From contig JAGCVD010000016.1 of the NCBI GenBank assembly GCA_017962545.1, positions 1 through 32,628 on the forward strand: DNA of 32,628 nucleotides. The letters run 5' to 3'. Made by a program: the position numbers and the translations under genes. Under the pieces are notes generated by a model. That model was not told the DNA's origin. It saw only the letters and a program-made list of their open reading frames with translations, and did no database searches. The DNA comes from Bacteroidales bacterium (GTDB lineage Bacteria; Bacteroidota; Bacteroidia; Bacteroidales; P3). This document shows positions 15,294 to 32,628 of the stretch, piece after piece; position 1 is the first letter of the stretch, and each line of letters begins with the position of its first letter.

Positions 15294-15299
15294 TTCTTT

Positions 15300-15461
15300 C
15301 AGTAGTTAAGGAGACAGTAGTTAAGTAGTTAAGACATTACAAATTTTCATCGTCAGTAGTTAAGGAGACAGTAGTTAAGTAGTTAAGACATTACAAATTT
15401 TCATCGTCAGTAGTTAAGGAGACAGTAGTTAAGTAGTTAAGACATTACAAATTTTCATCGA
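15300..15461. repeat. 54-base tandem repeat, three copies, at the rfbC end
   Basis: Three nearly identical 54-base copies lie in tandem (15300-15353, 15354-15407, 15408-15461). On the minus strand each copy begins with the last codons of rfbC (GATGAAAATTTGTAA) and continues into TTAACTAC octamers, so the duplicated unit includes the real end of the gene. Only the copy nearest rfbC ends the coding frame. The other two are non-coding copies in the rfbC-rfbD gap. Near-perfect identity suggests recent expansion. Confidence 0.92.
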
Positions 15462-16011: not shown

Positions 16012-18431
16012 TTCTCCTTTGCCTCGCTCTCGTCACCATAACCGTAGCCATAGCCGTAGCCGTAACCATAGCCATAACCATAGCCGTAACCGTAGCCATA
16101 ACCATAGCCGTAGCCATAGCCACCGTAGCGCTTCTTGATAAGAGGCACGTCGGTAAGCACAGCGGCCATATTCTTGAAGCGGCCCTTGTCAGCCATATCC
16201 TGAATGAACGGCAGCGAACCCTTGTTGAGCTTGCCGATACGCATGACGTAGGTCGTCAGGTCGGCCACTCGGTTGATGATGGCTGCGTCGGCCACAATCT
16301 GGGCAGGTGTCGAGTCGAAGATGATATAGTCGTAGTGCTCACGCAGGTAAGCCACCAGCTTGTCGAGTTTGTCGCCCATAAGCAGCTGCGTGGCGTTGGG
16401 CGGCGTCTTCTCGCAGACGATATAGTCGAGGTGGTCGCTGCTTTCACTATGGGTGATGTACTTCTCGAAGTTGTCTTCAGTATCCAGCAGGTAGTGGATA
16501 AGGCCCATACGGTTGTGACGGTCGATGGTCTTCGACAAGGAACGTTTGCGCAGGTCGAAGTCGGCCAGCAACGTGCGCTTGCCAGTGTATGCCAGCGACA
16601 GCGCCAGGTTGATAGCCATATAGGACTTACCCTCACCAGGTGTCGTGGACACCGTCTGGATGACCTTCTCGCCGTCCTTGAGGAAGAACGGTATGTTGGA
16701 ATGCAGCAGACGGAAGGCCTCCGTGACCACATCGGTGCCGTTGGCGGTGACGATGATTTCGTCGTTCTTGCGTGCCTCGGGCTTGGAGGGTATCTCTCCC
16801 AGCACGGGCAGCGACGTCATCTTCTCCACGTCGGCCTTCGAGCGCAACTTAGTGTCAAAGAAGGTGATGAGGAACATCACCAGCGCCGGCAGACCCAGAC
16901 CCAGCACGATGGCCACCAAGCCGAACATCATCAGACGGGGGCCGGTGAGACCTGTGATGGCGGGCTCAACCACTTTGGCATTGGCGACGGTGATAGCCAG
17001 GTTCATGGCAGTCTCCTCACGCTTGCTGAGCAGATAGAGGTAGAGCTCCTCCTTGATCTTCTGCTGACGCACCACCTCGGTGACAGCCTTGGTCTGCGTA
17101 GGCATGGCGGCAATCTGGCCGCGGGCCTTGGCCTCCTGGGCACGGGCCTCTTTCAGGCGGACTCCCGTGGCAGACAGCAGGTTGTTGACCGACGTACTGA
17201 TAGCCTCCCACTGGGCAGCCATCTGTGCCTTCGCATTACGCACCTGCGGGTTGTTCTCACCGCCGGTAATCTTCACACGAGCCAGATTGTTGACCTGTTG
17301 GTTATAGGCTGCAATCAACTGCTGTGTGGCGCCATCACTGATAGCTACGTTGGCCGGTATAATCTGATCCTGGTTCTCGGGGTCGGAGATATAGTTCTTG
17401 ACAAACTCGATGAGGCGGTATTCGGCCTCGAGCTGCACCACCTGCTCGGTGTAACGGGTGCCCGTCTGCAGCAGCTGGCTGGAAGCGCCCTCGAGGTCGG
17501 GCAGGTTGGACTCCTTCTGGATGCGCTCCACCTGAGCGTCAACATCTCCCAGCTCGCCGCTGATGAGTGCGATACGGTCCGAGATGAACTGCTCCGTCTT
17601 CTGCGCCACCTTGTTCTTGTCTTCGACAGCGTCGTCGTTATAGACGGCTATCAAGGTGTCCACAATCTGGTTGGCACGTTTGGGGTTGCTGTCCTTATAG
17701 CTGATGGCGAGGATGGTGGCCAACTTGTCGACACGTGTGACGCTGAGGTTACCCAGCATACCACGGGCCATGGAGAATGCATTGGCGACACCCACATTGA
17801 GCTTCACGCCCTCAAAACTCTCATTGAAGAACGGCGTCGGCTCCACCACGAACGACACGGTGTCGTCGACCTTGACGACTTGGTTGAAATAGGCTTCACC
17901 CTTTATCTTACGGTTGTTCCACACGGTCTCATAGCTGTACTTGTGGTTGGGCTTCACCTTGACACGGAGTCCGATGCTGGGCTGACGGTCCTCCTTGCTG
18001 TCGTTGACACTCACTTTCAGAGGCTCGTTGCCGAAGTAAGTAATCTTACGGAACATGTCGTTACGCGAGCAGTAGTGGTTCATGTCGAGACGCTGCACCA
18101 CCTGGGCCATCAGCCACGAGGAACGCAGCATATACATCTCGTTCTCCAGCGAGAGGCCGCCGTTATCCATACCCATATTACTCAGGACGGCATCCAAGCC
18201 ACGGCTGGAATAACCCATCTTCTTGTCGTTGTCACGCACAAGGATAGTACCCTTGGCGCTGTACTCCTTGGGCTGGGCCTTGTAGACAAAGCCGGCCACC
18301 ACGAGACACAGCAGCACACTGGCGACGAACCAGTACCAGTTGTTCAGCACGATAAAAACGATATCCCGAATGTTAATCGAGTTCTCGCCGTTACCGTTGT
18401 TGACGTTTTGATTCTGAACGTTATTTTCCAT
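16008..18431 (-). CDS. wzc: Wzc-like polysaccharide co-polymerase with tyrosine kinase (BY-kinase) domain
   Basis: The 807-residue product controls chain length and export of exopolysaccharide through the inner membrane. A Wzz-like part comes first, with a membrane segment near residues 33-52 and a long coiled-coil periplasmic region. A second membrane segment near 515-540 (LMMFGLVAIVLGLGLPALV) precedes the kinase: Walker A TPGEGKSYMA near residue 600, Walker A' LLADFDLR and Walker B DYIIFDSTP. The C-terminus is an unusual tail of 14 YG dipeptides, the tyrosine cluster that BY-kinases autophosphorylate, then DESEAKEK. It lies between wza (28 bases upstream) and rfbC (overlapping). Confidence 0.95.
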   Translation of the reverse strand: MENNVQNQNVNNGNGENSINIRDIVFIVLNNWYWFVASVLLCLVVAGFVYKAQPKEYSAKGTILVRDNDKKMGYSSRGLDAVLSNMGMDNGGLSLENEMYMLRSSWLMAQVVQRLDMNHYCSRNDMFRKITYFGNEPLKVSVNDSKEDRQPSIGLRVKVKPNHKYSYETVWNNRKIKGEAYFNQVVKVDDTVSFVVEPTPFFNESFEGVKLNVGVANAFSMARGMLGNLSVTRVDKLATILAISYKDSNPKRANQIVDTLIAVYNDDAVEDKNKVAQKTEQFISDRIALISGELGDVDAQVERIQKESNLPDLEGASSQLLQTGTRYTEQVVQLEAEYRLIEFVKNYISDPENQDQIIPANVAISDGATQQLIAAYNQQVNNLARVKITGGENNPQVRNAKAQMAAQWEAISTSVNNLLSATGVRLKEARAQEAKARGQIAAMPTQTKAVTEVVRQQKIKEELYLYLLSKREETAMNLAITVANAKVVEPAITGLTGPRLMMFGLVAIVLGLGLPALVMFLITFFDTKLRSKADVEKMTSLPVLGEIPSKPEARKNDEIIVTANGTDVVTEAFRLLHSNIPFFLKDGEKVIQTVSTTPGEGKSYMAINLALSLAYTGKRTLLADFDLRKRSLSKTIDRHNRMGLIHYLLDTEDNFEKYITHSESSDHLDYIVCEKTPPNATQLLMGDKLDKLVAYLREHYDYIIFDSTPAQIVADAAIINRVADLTTYVMRIGKLNKGSLPFIQDMADKGRFKNMAAVLTDVPLIKKRYGGYGYGYGYGYGYGYGYGYGYGYGYGYGYGDESEAKEK
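16035..16127. repeat. Six-base repeat encoding the Tyr-Gly tail of Wzc
   Basis: Fourteen consecutive Tyr-Gly codon pairs. Tyr uses both codons (TAT and TAC) and Gly only GGT or GGC, so the array is not a perfect microsatellite. The mixed codons argue that the peptide repeat is kept by selection, while the six-base period still allows slippage in whole YG steps. Confidence 0.92.
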
Positions 18432-27947: not shown

Positions 27948-28105
27948 TGTCTATTATGCGCGTATAATATACATATACGCATGATAGACAAAGGGTTGCG
28001 GCAACACTCCTGTGATAGGAGCGCCCGCTGGCCAGCGACCCGACATGCTGGCGAACCCTCGGGGAACTCCAGACATATACCTGGAGGAGAGGGAGAATTG
28101 TATCC
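27948..28105 (+). promoter_or_regulatory. Structured 5' leader of upxY
   Basis: The leader opens with an imperfect inverted repeat (27948-27965 with 27975-27990) right at the transcription start; it could be a hairpin or an operator. Then GGGTT (27993-27997) can pair with AACCC (28054-28058), enclosing two hairpins (CTCCT/AGGAG at 28007-28021 and GCCAGC/GCTGGC at 28031-28052). A last hairpin, CTCCAG/CTGGAG (28067-28086), lies just ahead of upxY. Rival pairings exist: GGGTTGC with GCGACCC (28035-28041), and the palindrome CGCTGGCCAGCG (28026-28037). This could be an antitermination or switch leader, though I do not recognise a named family. Confidence 0.6.
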
Positions 28106-28591
28106 ATGGACAAACATTGGTACGCACTTAAAATCTACTACAACCGAGTGCAGGCGATGATTGCCGACTGCCACAAGGCGGGCATCGAGTTCTTCGCGCC
28201 CACCGACGTCATCAAGTCGCTGCTGTTCCTGCACTGCGATGAAGAGGAGGTGCAGCGTTTTGTGGCCGACCGCTGGCAGCGTGTCTGGCTCTACCGTGAG
28301 GTCGAAAGTCGGCGGCCGGCAGCCATCCCCGACCACGAGATGGAGGTGTTCCGCTTCGTGGTGACGGCCGGACGCGATGGCCTACAGCTGCTGGGCGACG
28401 ACCGCCCCGAATACCATGAGGGCGACCGTGTGGTGGTCACCGGAGGTCCTTTCAAGGGTGCCGAAGGGCACATCAAGCGTATCAAGCGCGACCGCCGTCT
28501 GGTGGTGACCATCCGCGGCGTCGTGGCCGTAGCCACAACATACATTCATCCTTCCTTACTGCGCAAAGCGGATGAGTCTGTGAGTCTGTAG
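28106..28591 (+). CDS. UpxY-type NusG-family transcription antiterminator
   Basis: The 161-residue product begins with HWYALKIYYNRV, as in the NGN domain of NusG/RfaH-like proteins. It ends with a KOW-type segment (EGDRVVVTGGPFKGAEGHIKRI, about residues 110-135). UpxY proteins in Bacteroides keep RNA polymerase elongating through their own capsule operon, acting on the 5' leader. Its place as first gene behind a long structured leader and ahead of sugar transferase and exporter genes fits that role. The last residues (ESVSL) and stop are encoded by 8-base repeats, so the natural C-terminus may have been replaced. Confidence 0.87.
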   Translation: MDKHWYALKIYYNRVQAMIADCHKAGIEFFAPTDVIKSLLFLHCDEEEVQRFVADRWQRVWLYREVESRRPAAIPDHEMEVFRFVVTAGRDGLQLLGDDRPEYHEGDRVVVTGGPFKGAEGHIKRIKRDRRLVVTIRGVVAVATTYIHPSLLRKADESVSL

Positions 28592-28597
28592 GTCTTA
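28574..28597. repeat. 8-base repeat at the end of upxY
   Basis: Three octamers in register (GAGTCTGT twice, then AGGTCTTA). They encode the upxY C-terminus and its stop and reach to 12 bases before the next start codon. Confidence 0.75.
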
Positions 28598-28609
28598 AAG
28601 AAAACTTTT

Positions 28610-28972
28610 ATGAAAAGGATTTTCGAGAATCTTTTCGTTTGGCAAGAAGCACGAGCAATGGTGGTCGAGATATACTCCATGTTAGACGGGTCAAGGGATT
28701 ATGGGTTTAAAGACCAACTTCAGCGTGCCGCCGTCAGTATAATGAACAATATTGCAGAAGGAGCTGACTCTGGTTCTGATGCCAAATTCATCAATTACCT
28801 CAACACTTCACGAGGTAGTTGTTCCGAAGTTCGAAGTATGCTTTATCTTTGCGAAGACCTAGGGTTATGCACCACGGCCAAAAGAGAAGAACTACAAGGC
28901 AGAGTCAATCAAATATCCTACGGCCTTGCCAAACTGACAGACTCCCTCCAACAACCCACCTCAAAGACATAA
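28610..28972 (+). CDS. Four-helix-bundle protein (23S rRNA IVP family)
   Basis: The 120-residue product matches the small four-helix-bundle family: it begins FENLFVWQEARAMVVEIY and contains FKDQLQRAAVSIMNNIAEGA and FINYLNTSRGSCSEVRSML. The family was first seen inside 23S rRNA intervening sequences and is common as lone genes in Bacteroidetes; its function is unknown. This copy is richer in A and T than its neighbours and lies between 8-base repeat tracts on both sides, inside an otherwise GC-rich polysaccharide region. That suggests insertion from outside. A second member starts at 32528. Confidence 0.93.
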   Translation: MKRIFENLFVWQEARAMVVEIYSMLDGSRDYGFKDQLQRAAVSIMNNIAEGADSGSDAKFINYLNTSRGSCSEVRSMLYLCEDLGLCTTAKREELQGRVNQISYGLAKLTDSLQQPTSKT

Positions 28973-29019
28973 GGACTAAACGACTCAAGGACTCATAGAC
29001 TTAAGGACTTAAAGTCTCT
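28964..29019. repeat. 8-base repeat, seven units, abutting a start codon
   Basis: Seven octamers (variants of AGGACTNA) run without a slip from inside the end of the four-helix-bundle gene to the base before the ATG at 29020. The whole ribosome-binding region of the sugar transferase gene is therefore repeat sequence. Confidence 0.88.
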
Positions 29020-30192
29020 ATGAAAAAAGGTCTGTTCCAACTGCAATACGAAGTCGAGGATTCCCGACGCTACACCGAGGCCGGCAGCGACCGCGGTGCC
29101 AAACTGCGTGTCGATGAAGGCATAAACCCCGAGGTGTGGCAGGTGCTCAAGGACACCGAGAAGATGGGCTACAAAGGCACCATCAAATACCTGATGGAGC
29201 GGCAGTCGGAGCCCGGCAGCACGATTATGGTGGTGCCCATCACCACCCGCACGCCCGAGGCGCTGCACTACCGCCTCAACGGACAGACACCCAAGCTGAT
29301 ATTCCTCTCGCGGCCACTGCACACCATCGAGCGGCTCGACGAGCAACTCTACACCGTCAGCCAGATGGTGCCCAACGGCACCTACCTCTGCTGTCACGCG
29401 ATGACAGCCACCCTGAAACGCAAGCTGGCCATGCAACAATACCCGTGGGGCATCAACTACCTAGTGGTAGGCTTGGGCTACCTGTGGCACCGCGTGTGTC
29501 CTAAGCTGCGGCTTACTGAAGGTCTCTACTTCTACCTGACAGGCGGCAAGGACCGCACCATGAGCCGCGTGGAGATCATCGGCCGTCTCTACCGTGCCGG
29601 CTTCGAGGTGGTCGACGAGCAGTTCCGCGAGGGCGAGTTCTTTGTCACCGCCTGCAAGGCCACCGAGCCCGTGGACGATGCGGCGCCGAATGGCTCTCCC
29701 ATCATCCACCTGCGCCGCATCGGCAAGGGCGGCAAAACGATAGTGGTGCACAAGTTCCGCACGATGTACACCTACTCGGAGTATGTGCAGCCTTATATCT
29801 ACCACTACCAGAGCCTCGAGCGCGGCGGCAAGTTCAAGGACGACTACCGCGTCAACTTCTGGGGTCGCCTGTTGCGGCGGCTGTGGCTCGACGAATTGCC
29901 GATGATTTGGAATATGCTGCGCGGCGACCTCAAACTGGTGGGCGTGCGGCCGCTGAGCCGACAGTACTTCAGCCTCTACACTCCCGAACTGCAGGCCTTG
30001 CGCACCAAGACCAAGCCCGGTCTGCTGCCGCCGTTCTACTACGAAGCCAAGACCCCCGAGACCCTCGACGAGGTGCAGGAGAGCGAGCAACGCTACCTCG
30101 AGGCCTACCTCCAGGCCCCCCTCAAGACCGACTGGAAATACTTCTGGGGCATCGTCGGCAACATACTTTTCAACCGAAAACATTCAGCATGA
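29020..30192 (+). CDS. Sugar transferase-domain protein, atypical (polyprenyl-phosphate glycosylphosphotransferase-like)
   Basis: The C-terminal part of the 390-residue product carries bacterial sugar transferase signatures: GKGGKTIVVHKFRTM (Lys245-Met249), GRLLRRLWLDELPMIWNMLRGDLKLVGVRPLS. Two expected features are missing. There is no hydrophobic membrane helix with the KRxxD start ahead of the domain, and the acidic Asp-Glu dyad just after KFRTM is replaced (TYSEY). The usual VGPRP is VGVRP. The N-terminal ~220 residues show no family I recognise; residues ~165-215 (FYLTGGKDRTMSRVEIIGRLYRAGFEVVDEQ) recall the end of a methyltransferase-like fold. It may start chain synthesis in a variant way or not at all. 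The permease start overlaps its stop (ATGA). Confidence 0.78.
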   Translation: MKKGLFQLQYEVEDSRRYTEAGSDRGAKLRVDEGINPEVWQVLKDTEKMGYKGTIKYLMERQSEPGSTIMVVPITTRTPEALHYRLNGQTPKLIFLSRPLHTIERLDEQLYTVSQMVPNGTYLCCHAMTATLKRKLAMQQYPWGINYLVVGLGYLWHRVCPKLRLTEGLYFYLTGGKDRTMSRVEIIGRLYRAGFEVVDEQFREGEFFVTACKATEPVDDAAPNGSPIIHLRRIGKGGKTIVVHKFRTMYTYSEYVQPYIYHYQSLERGGKFKDDYRVNFWGRLLRRLWLDELPMIWNMLRGDLKLVGVRPLSRQYFSLYTPELQALRTKTKPGLLPPFYYEAKTPETLDEVQESEQRYLEAYLQAPLKTDWKYFWGIVGNILFNRKHSA

Positions 30193-31046
30193 AAGAAGAA
30201 GACAACTGGACAACCGTCATCAAGCCGCGAGAAAAGCTGCTGCAGGTCGACTTCAAGGAGTTGTGGCGCTACCGCGACCTCACCAGCCTCTTCGTGCGGC
30301 GCAACATCACGACGCAGTATAAGCAGACCATCCTGGGGCCGCTATGGTACATCATACAGCCCGTCATCACGGTAATCATGTACATGGTAGTCTTCGGTGG
30401 CATCGCCAAGATACCCACCGACGGCCTGCCACAACCGCTCTTCTACCTCAGCGGCATCTGCCTCTGGCAGTACTTCAACGACTGCCTCACCAAGACCTCC
30501 TCCACCTTCACGGCCAATGCCGGCATCTTCGGCAAGGTCTACTTCCCCCGCATGGTGGTGCCCATCTCTACCGTCATCAGCAACCTCTTGCGCTTCGCCA
30601 TCCAGTTCGGCCTCTTCCTGGTGGTCTACGCCATCTACCAGTTGTGGATCATCCCCGGACAGATACACACCAACTGGTACGCCCTGCTGCTGCCACTGCT
30701 GGTGGTGATGCTGGCGGGCTTGGCTTTGGGATTTGGCATCCTCTTCTCGAGCATGACCACCAAGTACCGCGACATGAGCCTGCTGCTCGACTACTTCGTG
30801 CGCCTCTGGATGTACGCCACCCCCGTCATCTACCCCCTGAGCACCATCACCAACGCCAAGTTGCGCTTCGTGATGAGCCTCAACCCCCTGACGGGCATCG
30901 TCGAGGCCTTCAAATACGGCATGCTGGGCGAGGGTCAGTTCAGCTGGGGCATGCTGGGCTACAGCTTCGCCTTCATGGCGGTACTGCTGGCCGTGGGAGT
31001 CGTGATATTCAACCGCGTGCAACGCACCTTTATGGACACCGTCTGA
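30189..31046 (+). CDS. ABC-2 type polysaccharide exporter permease (Wzm/TagG-like)
   Basis: The 285-residue product has about six hydrophobic segments. Typical features are YRDLTSLFVRRNITTQYKQTILGPLWYIIQP near the start and the KYRDMSLLLDYFVRLWMYATPVIYP segment. Such permeases move undecaprenyl-linked polysaccharide across the inner membrane and need an ATPase (Wzt), usually encoded directly downstream; here a 256-base repeat tract follows instead. The frame is open upstream to 29883, but MKEEDNWTTVIKPREK at 30189, overlapping the transferase stop by four bases, fits the family. Confidence 0.93.
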   Translation: MKEEDNWTTVIKPREKLLQVDFKELWRYRDLTSLFVRRNITTQYKQTILGPLWYIIQPVITVIMYMVVFGGIAKIPTDGLPQPLFYLSGICLWQYFNDCLTKTSSTFTANAGIFGKVYFPRMVVPISTVISNLLRFAIQFGLFLVVYAIYQLWIIPGQIHTNWYALLLPLLVVMLAGLALGFGILFSSMTTKYRDMSLLLDYFVRLWMYATPVIYPLSTITNAKLRFVMSLNPLTGIVEAFKYGMLGEGQFSWGMLGYSFAFMAVLLAVGVVIFNRVQRTFMDTV

Positions 31047-31047
31047 C

Positions 31048-31303
31048 GAAGTCTACGAGACATCAAGACAACGAGTCAATAAGACAACGAGTCTTCAAGA
31101 CAACGAGTCTACAAGACAACGAGACATCAAGACAATGAGTCTACAAGACAACGAGACTTCAAGACAACGAGACATCAAGACAACGAGTCTACAAGACAAC
31201 AAGTCTACAAGACAACAAGACAACGAGACTTCAAGACAACGAGACATCAAGACAACAAGACAACGAGACATCAAGACTTCAAGACTTTAAGACATCGAGA
31301 TTC
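31048..31303. repeat. 32-unit 8-base repeat array
   Basis: 256 bases made only of octamers with consensus YRAGWCWW (chiefly CAAGACAA alternating with CGAGTCTA, CGAGACAT or CGAGACTT), with no insertion or deletion in 32 units. Positions 3 and 4 (AG) are invariant and position 6 is C in all but the last unit. CAAGACAA is nearly every second unit, so a 16-base higher-order period is visible. It starts just after the permease stop and ends 12 bases before the start of the nucleotidyltransferase-like gene. Confidence 0.95.
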
Positions 31304-31315
31304 TTTTAGTTCCGA

Positions 31316-32449
31316 TTGAGACAAGAGATTGACATAGTATTTGCGCTGTTGCGCAGTGCCCTTGATGGGACGGTGCCGGAGATTGAACCGCTGGACGCCA
31401 GCCGTTGGTGGAACCTTTTCCGCTTGCTACAGAAAAACCATGTGGCGGCACTGGTCACCGATGGAGTGTCGCGTCTGCCCCAAGCCCTGCAGCCTCCACG
31501 CGATGTATTCATTCCCTGGTTGGCAGAGCAGGAGAAAGCCTCGGCATGGTATCGCCATCAACAGCAGGTACAACAGAAAATTGTCGACCTGCTGCAACAG
31601 AATGGCATTAACACCCTCGTGCTCAAAGGCACCCACACCGCGCAGTACTATCCCAACCCCGAACTCCGTGAGTTTGGAGATTTGGACCTCTATTTTTACG
31701 ATAAACACGACGAAGCCGACCGCCTCATTCAACGGCGGTTCAGTATTGACATCACCAACGACATCAACCACCACACCAAATACAACCTGAGCGGAGTCAC
31801 CGTCGAAAGTCATTACCACCTGCTCAACCACTACCACCCACACAGCAACCGCAGCTACGAGGCCCTCCTCAAGGAGTTAATTAGTGAAAACTATCAACCC
31901 TCAACTCTCCTGCCTGCTTCGCAGGCTTTGAGCACCTCTGATTCAAAAAAAAATCCAGCGAAAAACTCTAAACTCTCAACTTTCGAAATCCTCTTCCTCT
32001 TGCGCCACATGGCCTGCCACTTCGCCGCCAGCCGCATCACCCTGCGCGACCTCGTGGACTGGGCGCTCACCTGCTGCGCCCTGCACGACAAAGTCGATTG
32101 GGAGAAGGTAAACACCGTGGTAAAAGACTTCGGCATGGAGCCCTTCTTCTCCGCCCTCAACACCATCGTCGCCCAACGCCTCGGCCAGCAAACCCTCAAT
32201 GACTCACAGACTCACGGACTCACAGACACAAAGACTCAACATCTCCTCGAGCGCGACATCATATATGGCAACCCCCAATCTGCCGAACGCGAACGTGAGG
32301 ACCTCGGCCGCCTTGTGTGGAAACTGCGCCGCTGGCGCGCCAACCGATGGAAGCAGCGACTTGTCTTCAACGACTCTCCCTTCAGCCTATGGTTCAGCAA
32401 CCTCGGCGCCCATACCCACAATCCTCGCAGTATCCTGCATAAGATGTAA
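31316..32449 (+). CDS. Nucleotidyltransferase-like protein (NTP_transf_5 family)
   Basis: The 377-residue product carries the family core LVLKGTHTAQYYPNPELREFGDLDLYF (about residues 102-128), in which GDLDL is the nucleotidyltransferase Gly-x-Asp-x-Asp-like motif. The family (PF14907) is uncharacterised and is often near capsule or peptide-modification loci. The start is TTG, just after the octamer array, so an earlier start may have been lost. The frame holds two translated repeat inserts (residues ~193-223 and ~296-309), which raises doubt about activity, although the frame is intact. It follows the permease and may belong to the same transcript. Confidence 0.75.
   Translation: MRQEIDIVFALLRSALDGTVPEIEPLDASRWWNLFRLLQKNHVAALVTDGVSRLPQALQPPRDVFIPWLAEQEKASAWYRHQQQVQQKIVDLLQQNGINTLVLKGTHTAQYYPNPELREFGDLDLYFYDKHDEADRLIQRRFSIDITNDINHHTKYNLSGVTVESHYHLLNHYHPHSNRSYEALLKELISENYQPSTLLPASQALSTSDSKKNPAKNSKLSTFEILFLLRHMACHFAASRITLRDLVDWALTCCALHDKVDWEKVNTVVKDFGMEPFFSALNTIVAQRLGQQTLNDSQTHGLTDTKTQHLLERDIIYGNPQSAEREREDLGRLVWKLRRWRANRWKQRLVFNDSPFSLWFSNLGAHTHNPRSILHKM
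31895..31983. repeat. Insert with flanking 7-base repeats and a palindrome in the nucleotidyltransferase gene
   Basis: Heptamers CAACCCT and CAACTCT open the insert and AAACTCT (twice) and CAACTTT close it. Between lies the hairpin GCCTGC-TTC-GCAGGC (31912-31926) and A-rich sequence with a run of nine A. It is translated as YQPSTLLPASQALSTSDSKK and more, without a stop. Confidence 0.75.
32201..32240. repeat. 8-base repeat inside the nucleotidyltransferase gene
   Basis: Five octamers in register (GACTCACA, GACTCACG, GACTCACA, GACACAAA, GACTCAAC) are translated as DSQTHGLTDTKTQ. The GACT core recalls the intergenic octamer arrays of the same region. Confidence 0.82.
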
Positions 32450-32452
32450 GTG

Positions 32453-32494
32453 GTTTACCGTTTTTTGTTTACTATTTACAGTTTACCGTTTACT
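32453..32494. repeat. 7-base repeat, six units, before the last gene
   Basis: Six heptamers in register, variants of GTTTACC, start 4 bases after the nucleotidyltransferase stop. The same period and GTTTA core occur at 10877-10904. Confidence 0.85.
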
Positions 32495-32527
32495 GTTGTT
32501 TCTAATAACATACCAATATAGTTGATC

Positions 32528-32628
32528 ATGTACGCTTTTGAAAACCTTGATGCATGGAAAGAATCGCGCAAGTTAGTGGTGGCTGTTTATCAACTGTTAG
32601 ACAAGTTCCCGAATTTTGAGAAATATGC
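32528..32628 (+). CDS. Four-helix-bundle protein, 5' part (cut by window end)
   Basis: The ATG at 32528 opens a frame reading MYAFENLDAWKESRKLVVAV then YQLLDKFPNFEKY, which runs off the window after 33 codons. The FENLxxWxESRxLVVxVY start is the mark of the four-helix-bundle (23S rRNA IVP) family and resembles the gene at 28610. It is AT-richer than its neighbours and again follows a short-period repeat. Confidence 0.88.
   Translation, partial: MYAFENLDAWKESRKLVVAVYQLLDKFPNFEKY

Follow-up and report, generated by a model that had tools for sequence, protein, structure and literature searches.

A long array of octamers separates an ABC-2 permease gene from an NTP_transf_5 gene near the 3' end of a contig from a rumen Bacteroidales bacterium, and it raises the question of what such an array is and how it came to lie between two protein genes. 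The window that we analyzed is the whole stretch of DNA, 32,628 bases, which is the entire contig JAGCVD010000016.1 of a bin (GCA_017962545.1) that comprises 42 contigs and is 81% complete. We consider the array at 31048-31303 to be the solo, expanded arm of an IVP element, with a probability of roughly 70%. By IVP element we mean a proposed unit in which an IVP/S23 gene of about 120 codons stands between two inward-facing tandem arrays, the arms, of one short unit. Below, G-numbers denote genomes (G000 is the genome of the window, or own genome), L-numbers loci and C-numbers contigs of the own genome.

The array is as regular as a preliminary description of the window had reported. Thirty of 30 consecutive octamers from 31056 to 31295 are strictly YRAGWCWW in a single register, AG is present at positions 3-4 of all 32 units, and there is no single-base slip across them. 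The statement that every unit fits the consensus holds for these 30 units but not for the first (GAAGTCTA at 31048, 7 of 8 letters) and the last (CGAGATTC at 31296, 6 of 8). Overall, 98.8% of the positions in this 256-base stretch match the profile in the best register, compared with 42% on average and 51% at most for the remaining 256-base stretches of the window, and a scan of both strands of the window found no second strict in-register run of two or more units. The 16-base superperiod that had been noted is present but modest: unit identity at lag 2 is 0.32, a value reached by 266 of 5000 unit shuffles, and at lag 6 it is 0.33 (302 of 5000).

IVP genes between inverted arms

Most of the IVP genes examined are immediately bracketed by arrays of the same unit that are inverted relative to each other. 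There are 91 IVP places above the cut-off in 25 genomes, with 1 to 18 IVP matches per genus genome, and flanks were examined for 66 of them: 61 of the 63 strongest and five weaker ones, all selected before their flanks were seen. The other 25 are weaker, cut or of a long type, and the second IVP gene of the window, which is cut by the contig end, is outside the 66. The long paralog forms a separate clade and was armless in all three cases (L140, L311, and L323). Each flank pair was given an inverted-flank score, in which the upstream flank is compared with the reverse complement of the downstream flank. The median score was 26.5 for the own pairs of the 57 genus genes, against 10.5 for direct comparison, 9.0 for swapped partners and 9.0 for 150 control frames. 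A score of at least 15 was obtained for 52 of the 57 genus genes and for six of nine genes from other Bacteroidales families, but for only 3 of 394 control frames. In addition, the best period was identical on both flanks for 58 of the 66 genes (expected, 23.7), and arm similarity tracks IVP protein identity (Mantel r 0.34, 0 of 2000 permutations).

The base content of the arms is highly skewed: C makes up 4.7% of the upstream arms and is below 5% in 38 of 52 of them, and G makes up 4.6% of the downstream arms. With so little C on one side and so little G on the other, folding through G-C pairs is available only between the two arms and not within one.

This layout extends well beyond the genus. 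PF05635 was matched at E 1e-10 in 147 of 198 Bacteroidota genomes and in none of 14 control genomes. Among 30 Bacteroidota loci, which were the strongest matches, one per genome, chosen regardless of their flanks, 23 had an inverted score of at least 15, compared with 10 of 120 swapped partners. On contigs around 80 permease matches, six of eight IVP genes also scored at least 15. A plasmid collection contained 24 records that match one IVP protein at E 1e-4, and we fetched 16 of these, 14 of them cyanobacterial; the records left out were H2, H4, H5, H11, and H23 (species already represented), a second Nostoc (H7), Scytonema H10 and Azospirillum H20. Thirteen of the 16 plasmid loci, mostly cyanobacterial, scored at least 17.5 inverted, with arms such as AACAGGG/CCCTGTT and AGAAGTC/GACTTCT around the IVP gene; the 13 include Gemmatirosa L342, in which the direct score exceeds the inverted one. 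The remaining three are L330, which has direct arrays, L336, and L343, the last with a partial gene. One IVP protein used as query against a phage collection gave no match, and three IVP proteins gave none in PADLOC.

Two side observations concern individual loci. The cyanobacterial plasmid loci L330, L331, and L339 have their IVP genes within CRISPR (clustered regularly interspaced short palindromic repeats) gene clusters: in two cases the genes on either side are cas6 and cas4, and in the third they are cas10/cmr2 and a cmr3-like gene. In a metagenome-assembled genome (MAG) labeled Desulfococcaceae, an IVP gene at L127 4934-5275 lies beside heptamer arrays with a direct score of 25.5 and an inverted score of 17.0.

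Movement of the gene with its arms

Among the 66 proteins there are 41 close pairs (at least 62% identity). In 30 of these pairs the flanks outside the arms have no detectable homology on either side, as judged over up to about 640 bases per side, while 10 pairs are homologous on both sides and one is partly unjudged. The 30 moved pairs nevertheless tend to keep their arms, as 26 of them share arm 6-mers, vs. 638 of 2115 other pairs. Supporting this is the fact that in seven pairs aligned as DNA the similarity outside genes is limited to the repeat arrays. The gene and its arms therefore occur together at non-homologous sites, as is expected of a mobile element.

We also considered whether the enzymes of known repeat systems could mobilize the arrays. 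No match to the Y1 transposase family PF01797 or to the reverse transcriptase family PF00078 was found in G000, which is 81% complete, and these families are present in 19 and 9 of the 25 genomes, respectively. Mobilization by REP-associated tyrosine transposases (RAYT; REP, repetitive extragenic palindromic sequence) or by a reverse transcriptase was rejected on the ground that neither enzyme is common to the array-bearing genomes.

The array and its neighborhood in related genomes

The features of the window that bear on the origin of the array are as follows, all on the plus strand.

31048-31303, plus strand: octamer array, 32 units, 30 of them strictly YRAGWCWW; read as a probable solo, expanded arm in the upstream-arm orientation, as in L070
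30189-31046, plus strand: ABC2_membrane (ABC-2) permease gene (PF01061), whose stop codon ends one base 5' of the array
31316-32449, plus strand: NTP_transf_5 gene (PF14907), 3' of the array; the TTG start is the choice of the gene-finding tool
28571-28600, plus strand: upstream arm of the first IVP gene, octamers like GAGTCTGT
28610-28972, plus strand: first IVP/S23 four-helix-bundle gene (PF05635, E 1e-29; TIGR02436)
28960-29018, plus strand: downstream arm of the first IVP gene, GACTYAAG octamers, the inverse of the upstream arm; overlaps the last codons of the gene
32453-32497, plus strand: upstream arm of the second IVP gene, GTTTACY heptamers
32528-32628, plus strand: second IVP gene, truncated at the contig end (PF05635, under the curated cut-off)
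15299-15460, plus strand: solo arm of three 54-base copies, without a gene, adjoining a PF00908 gene; corresponds to the upstream arm of an IVP element at G000 C1:22893-23210
31890-31983, plus strand: heptamer array with a short hairpin, inserted in frame into a variable loop of NTP_transf_5; the loop exceeds that of most aligned orthologs
32199-32240, plus strand: in-frame octamer array, GACTCACA, in a second variable loop of NTP_transf_5, from the sequence and an ortholog alignment

Both IVP genes of the window have arrays beside them. The PF05635 match of the second gene is under the cut-off because the gene is cut by the contig end, and its complete orthologs (L302 and L071) have inverted arms built of the same GTTTACY unit. 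The closest named matches of the permease are Bacteroidales MAGs, mostly from the rumen or ruminant gut, and in three relatives the octamer family and an IVP gene are found together next to the permease. L070 has an IVP gene in the gap directly 5' of the permease, flanked on both sides by octamer-family arms that have an inverted score of 29 and match YRAGWCWW at 86.5% and 87.5% of positions. The corresponding gap of L066 also holds an IVP gene with arms of the octamer family. In L062 it holds a decayed copy, the ends of an IVP gene without the middle, between octamer-family arms; this was judged by eye from a comparison with L066, and the profile match is weak (E 0.0014). In the window, the permease overlaps the preceding gene at the place where these three have the IVP gap.

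On the other side of the permease, the gap that holds the array is 269 bases long in the window. This gap is at most 50 bases in 18 of 24 relatives, while in L062 and L066 it contains arrays but no gene, L058 has an IVP gene amid arrays of another unit, L055 and L067 have another frame, and in L064 it is 72 bases. The array scan covered gaps of 25 bases or more; in shorter ones, a few units are visible by eye in L057 and L060. We also considered whether the gap arrays of the window, L062, and L066 go back to one ancestral array, but dropped this idea, as the permease tree gave no resolution.

These comparisons also bear on the earlier suggestion that the array occupies the expected place of an ABC (ATP-binding cassette) ATPase gene. 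Replacement of a lost ATPase gene is not borne out: since 18 of 24 genus relatives have the permease and NTP_transf_5 genes within 50 bases of each other, nothing is missing between them for this genus. In L074, a more distant relative (73% permease identity), the permease is directly followed by a frame that resembles an ATPase and has a Walker A motif, and similar frames occur in L071, L272, and L302 beyond NTP_transf_5 and an IVP gene, that is, past the end of the window contig; all were judged by eye, without a family search.

Gene-less arms do exist, as one copy within the solo arm at 15299-15460 is identical at 44 of 48 bases to the upstream arm of the C1 element. The array fits into this class. 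From its class, its neighbors and its relatives we infer that the array descends from a gene-bearing IVP element.

Several observations weigh against this assignment. The array itself has no IVP remnant (best profile E about 1). Strict YRAGWCWW units make up only 2 of the 13 in one L070 arm and 2 of the 12 in the other, and the upstream arm of L070 read on the opposite strand still matches YRAGWCWW at 69%. The inverted score of the L066 IVP gene is merely 13.0, and that of L058 is 8.0 against a direct score of 19.5, its nearest arrays being direct and of a different unit. The first IVP gene of the window scores 13.5, which is above the 95th percentile of the controls (12) but below the threshold of 15, and its arms give no lower predicted RNA energy. 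L330, L336, L361, L363, L342, and L127 likewise score higher direct than inverted. Furthermore, the element encodes no known recombinase, and no exact insertion site or target duplication was seen among the relatives, all of which are species apart; their gaps are either empty or filled, and at that distance the ends of an element cannot be placed.

Short-unit arrays in the own genome and the genus

Used as a query against the own genome, the array gave 26 matches at E ≤ 10, of which 15 were at E ≤ 0.001, in about 20 separate places, the weakest of which may be chance. At E 0.001, matches were found in 8 of 24 other genus genomes vs. none of 16 genomes of other families. This distribution indicates that something disperses the octamer, and local slippage alone can be ruled out, because one degenerate consensus is repeated at about 20 places; in this respect the preliminary description was correct. 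A stand-alone array made by an unknown 8-base templating process is not borne out, as gain and loss of whole units would suffice to keep phase and the array falls in the class of arms that bracket IVP genes. The repeats may nevertheless bind protein, as that description had also considered. We conclude that its interpretation overall is partly supported.

The octamer is one of many short units. The density of arrays with 6- to 12-base units is 23.0 and 19.0 per 100 kb on two long contigs of the own genome, 45.6 in own-genome stretches chosen for matches, and 23.1, 22.5, 68.6, and 30.0 in G015, G012, G002, and G001 (20 kb only for the last). The genus range of 19-69 per 100 kb compares with 4 arrays in 160 kb from four genomes of other families, and Markov controls gave 0-5 arrays per set. 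Period 7 was the commonest in own-genome contig C12 (23 of 46 arrays). Same-period arrays also occur as adjacent pairs: of those at most 60 bases apart in 636 kb, 14 were inverted, 5 direct and 9 neither, and the Markov control contained no such pairs. In clusters of the YRAGWCWW family on two strands, the arm reading RAGWCWWY precedes in all 13 separate clusters, a count that sets aside a single array matched on the two strands simultaneously (L035 and L040); in L012 the arms overlap.

Some arrays have further structure. A near-constant hairpin word, close to GTGGTGTGCCGTCGGCTTGGCCGACAAG, is nested in many copies in octamer arrays and in one copy in a heptamer array (L066, L002, L003, L041, L046 at 2302, and L062 at 3959), forming a second layer of small repeats within arms. 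Own-genome arrays of the AACTGCC heptamer have a constant core close to GCTGAGGCCCGCGAGCYTGACGAGCGAACTG (L133 12140, L139 8533, L141 18137, L145 10512, and L020). In G012, L227 4628-4709 is a perfect palindrome with three 11-base units per arm that resembles an oversized terminator hairpin.

Arrays within genes

In 538 kb there are 133 arrays with 7-11-base units, of which 45 are well within long frames, 31 are close to a frame end and 57 are outside frames. Random positions fell well within long frames in 94 of 133 cases, so that an enrichment of arrays inside genes can be discarded; the opposite was seen. Arrays favor the gaps between genes, yet about a third are intragenic. In the own genome, in-frame octamer arrays are present in an apparent RNase R (twice), RibD, a radical SAM (S-adenosylmethionine) protein, an ABC-F ATPase and others, these names having been assigned by eye and not by family search. 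Alignment with relatives places the RNase R, RibD, and radical SAM inserts in variable loops, and most relatives are without them. The RNase R insert sites are common to the own genome and G015, and in some relatives the variable loop is occupied by arrays of a different unit. Many in-gene inserts are two-armed, with an array followed by its inverse.

The arms of the RNase R insert are identical between the own genome and G015 at 21 of 21 codons, compared with 473 of 636 codons for identical residues elsewhere in the gene (binomial P 0.002). We do not take this as proof of selection on arm DNA, since a single locus is too thin a basis.

Proposed mechanism and alternative explanations

We propose that the arms of IVP elements have units of 6-12 bases, mostly 7-11, and that the elements lie in the tight intergenic gaps of operons. 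Gene-less arms and mini-elements, which consist of two inverted arms around a short spacer, far outnumber the gene-bearing form and also occur in frame in the variable loops of proteins. Units would be gained and lost in whole steps, which would explain why the 8-base phase is kept while the letters drift, and the weak 16-base superperiod is consistent with duplication of unit pairs. Inside genes, stop codons would filter the letters of the units: an array of period 7 or 8 passes through all three frames, so that only stop-free units would persist, which may be why the two arms of in-gene copies differ in letters. The least certain steps are that the IVP protein would bind the arms as DNA or RNA hairpins and that host enzymes, aided by it, would copy or seed arms elsewhere. 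As the own genome has no match to a Y1 transposase or reverse transcriptase, we infer that the IVP protein, if it drives movement, works with host enzymes.

The predicted structure of the IVP protein (mean predicted local distance difference test score, pLDDT, 94.5) best matches the S23-family structures 2gsc and 2rld. The next matches of the fold are Avd subunits of the diversity-generating retroelement complex, with a weak E-value and template modeling (TM) scores of about 0.75-0.80 (0.75/0.80 for 8ub7_C and 0.74/0.80 for 4dwl_A). An Avd profile matched only the armless IVP paralog, weakly (E 0.00058, under the cut-off), and a profile search of the Protein Data Bank with 14 IVP proteins gave convincing matches only to the two known S23-family structures. 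In 9 of 11 armed elements, the predicted RNA energy of the arm-gene-arm sequence was at least 2.9 standard deviations below the values obtained after shuffling the arms; the exceptions were the window's own element and L265.

An alternative explanation for the bracketed layout is that the arrays are independent selfish simple repeats, dispersed and held in phase by slippage and recombination, and that IVP genes hitch-hike in arrays that are harmless and form hairpins. The numbers of arrays (19-69 per 100 kb, vs. 1-18 IVP matches per genus genome), the existence of gene-less two-arm arrays and the occurrence of some IVP genes in direct arrays (L058 and L330) would all be expected from this. However, a gene inserted into a one-way array should have direct flanks, but those of 52 of 57 genes are inverted, and the arm units track the IVP lineage and move with the gene, and we therefore consider hitch-hiking unlikely. 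Less likely again is the idea that the arms are an operator or RNA stem by which the IVP gene regulates itself, with no role in mobility and with solo arrays as by-products. That arms tightly adjoin the gene and vary by lineage agrees with it, as do the RNA energies described above, but arm-arm pairs beat the highest of 12 shuffles in just 4 of 11 elements, gene-less arms and mini-elements are abundant, also within proteins, and armed genes occupy non-homologous sites.

An artefact of assembly or binning might be suspected given the incomplete 42-contig bin and the position of two arrays (L004 and L006) at contig ends. The array has matches in eight other genus genomes, though, and the RNase R insert, with its identical arm codons, is common to G015, which makes an artefact highly improbable. 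The solo, expanded arm of an IVP element is accordingly the explanation that we prefer for the array.

Relation to known systems

A selfish element with an S23 frame within terminal inverted repeats is already known in the 23S rRNA intervening sequence (IVS), which is cut by RNase III; its description also cites an earlier idea that the IVS was mobile, with the frame as mobility component (PMC4990558). Both systems have a PF05635 gene inside inverted repeats, as is the case for gene-bearing elements including that at 28610-28972 in the window, and for inverted repeats at both ends the genus figures are those given above (52 of 57 genes vs. 3 of 394 controls). The IVS, as described there, lies in rRNA helices, is excised by RNase III, and has a stem that is not presented as tandem units. 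The IVP elements, in contrast, are found in gaps of protein operons and on plasmids, with arms of short tandem units and many gene-less copies. The copies in the window lie between protein genes and not within a 23S rRNA gene, and for this reason we do not call them IVSs.

Cyanobacterial short tandem heptamer arrays have been named STRR since a source from 1990. They resemble the arrays described here in being degenerate one-unit tandem arrays at many genomic places, although their unit is of 7 bases and that of the window array is of 8. Degenerate heptamer arrays are on record from many intergenic places in Beggiatoaceae, Cyanobacteria, Bacteroidetes, and Xanthomonas, with polymerase slippage and possibly horizontal transfer proposed as origins (PMC4679880, PMC4692102). 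In their accessible portions these accounts tie no gene to the arrays, whereas we find IVP genes between inverted arrays, including on cyanobacterial plasmids.

Other small repeated DNAs differ in further respects. With diversity-generating retroelements the IVP elements share, according to the structure prediction, the four-helix fold of Avd, but they have no reverse transcriptase, and the Y1 transposase of REP/RAYT systems has no match in G000. Rickettsia palindromic elements are small inverted repeats that also occur in frame in genes; they, REP/REPIN sequences and miniature inverted-repeat transposable elements (MITEs) are likewise small repeated inverted DNA, but the arms of IVP elements are tandem arrays of a changing unit. 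Terminal inverted repeats of short tandem units are found in the Foldback transposons of Drosophila, although these are eukaryotic and have a different gene content, so that the likeness is one of layout only. A literature search by title and abstract, with subscription journals largely outside it, found nothing that joins IVP/S23 genes with tandem arrays and no function for the IVP/S23 "four helix bundle" family outside rRNA.

The origin of the degenerate heptamer and octamer arrays of several bacterial groups has so far been unsettled, and the bracketed IVP layout in many Bacteroidota and on cyanobacterial plasmids may explain it. Linking the arrays with the IVP/S23 family offers one moving unit of gene and arms as a testable explanation for both. 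Our tentative suggestion, toward which we lean less than halfway, is that IVP elements are a mobile DNA class of their own, in which an Avd-like protein recognizes and spreads the arms without a transposase, recombinase or reverse transcriptase of the element, and that the Bacteroidota and cyanobacterial arrays are arms or remnants of it and the 23S IVS a specialized case. If this is true, an Avd-fold protein may move DNA without a known transposase, and loops of ordinary enzymes in these genomes have been lengthened by mobile repeat DNA.

Other observations in the window

Rfam gave nothing at E 1 for positions 28000-32628, and the array had no match in the plasmid collection. A further array, CCATAACCATAG, at 16036-16122 lies at the end of a long minus-strand frame, encodes a glycine-tyrosine-rich tail and is probably an ordinary coding repeat.
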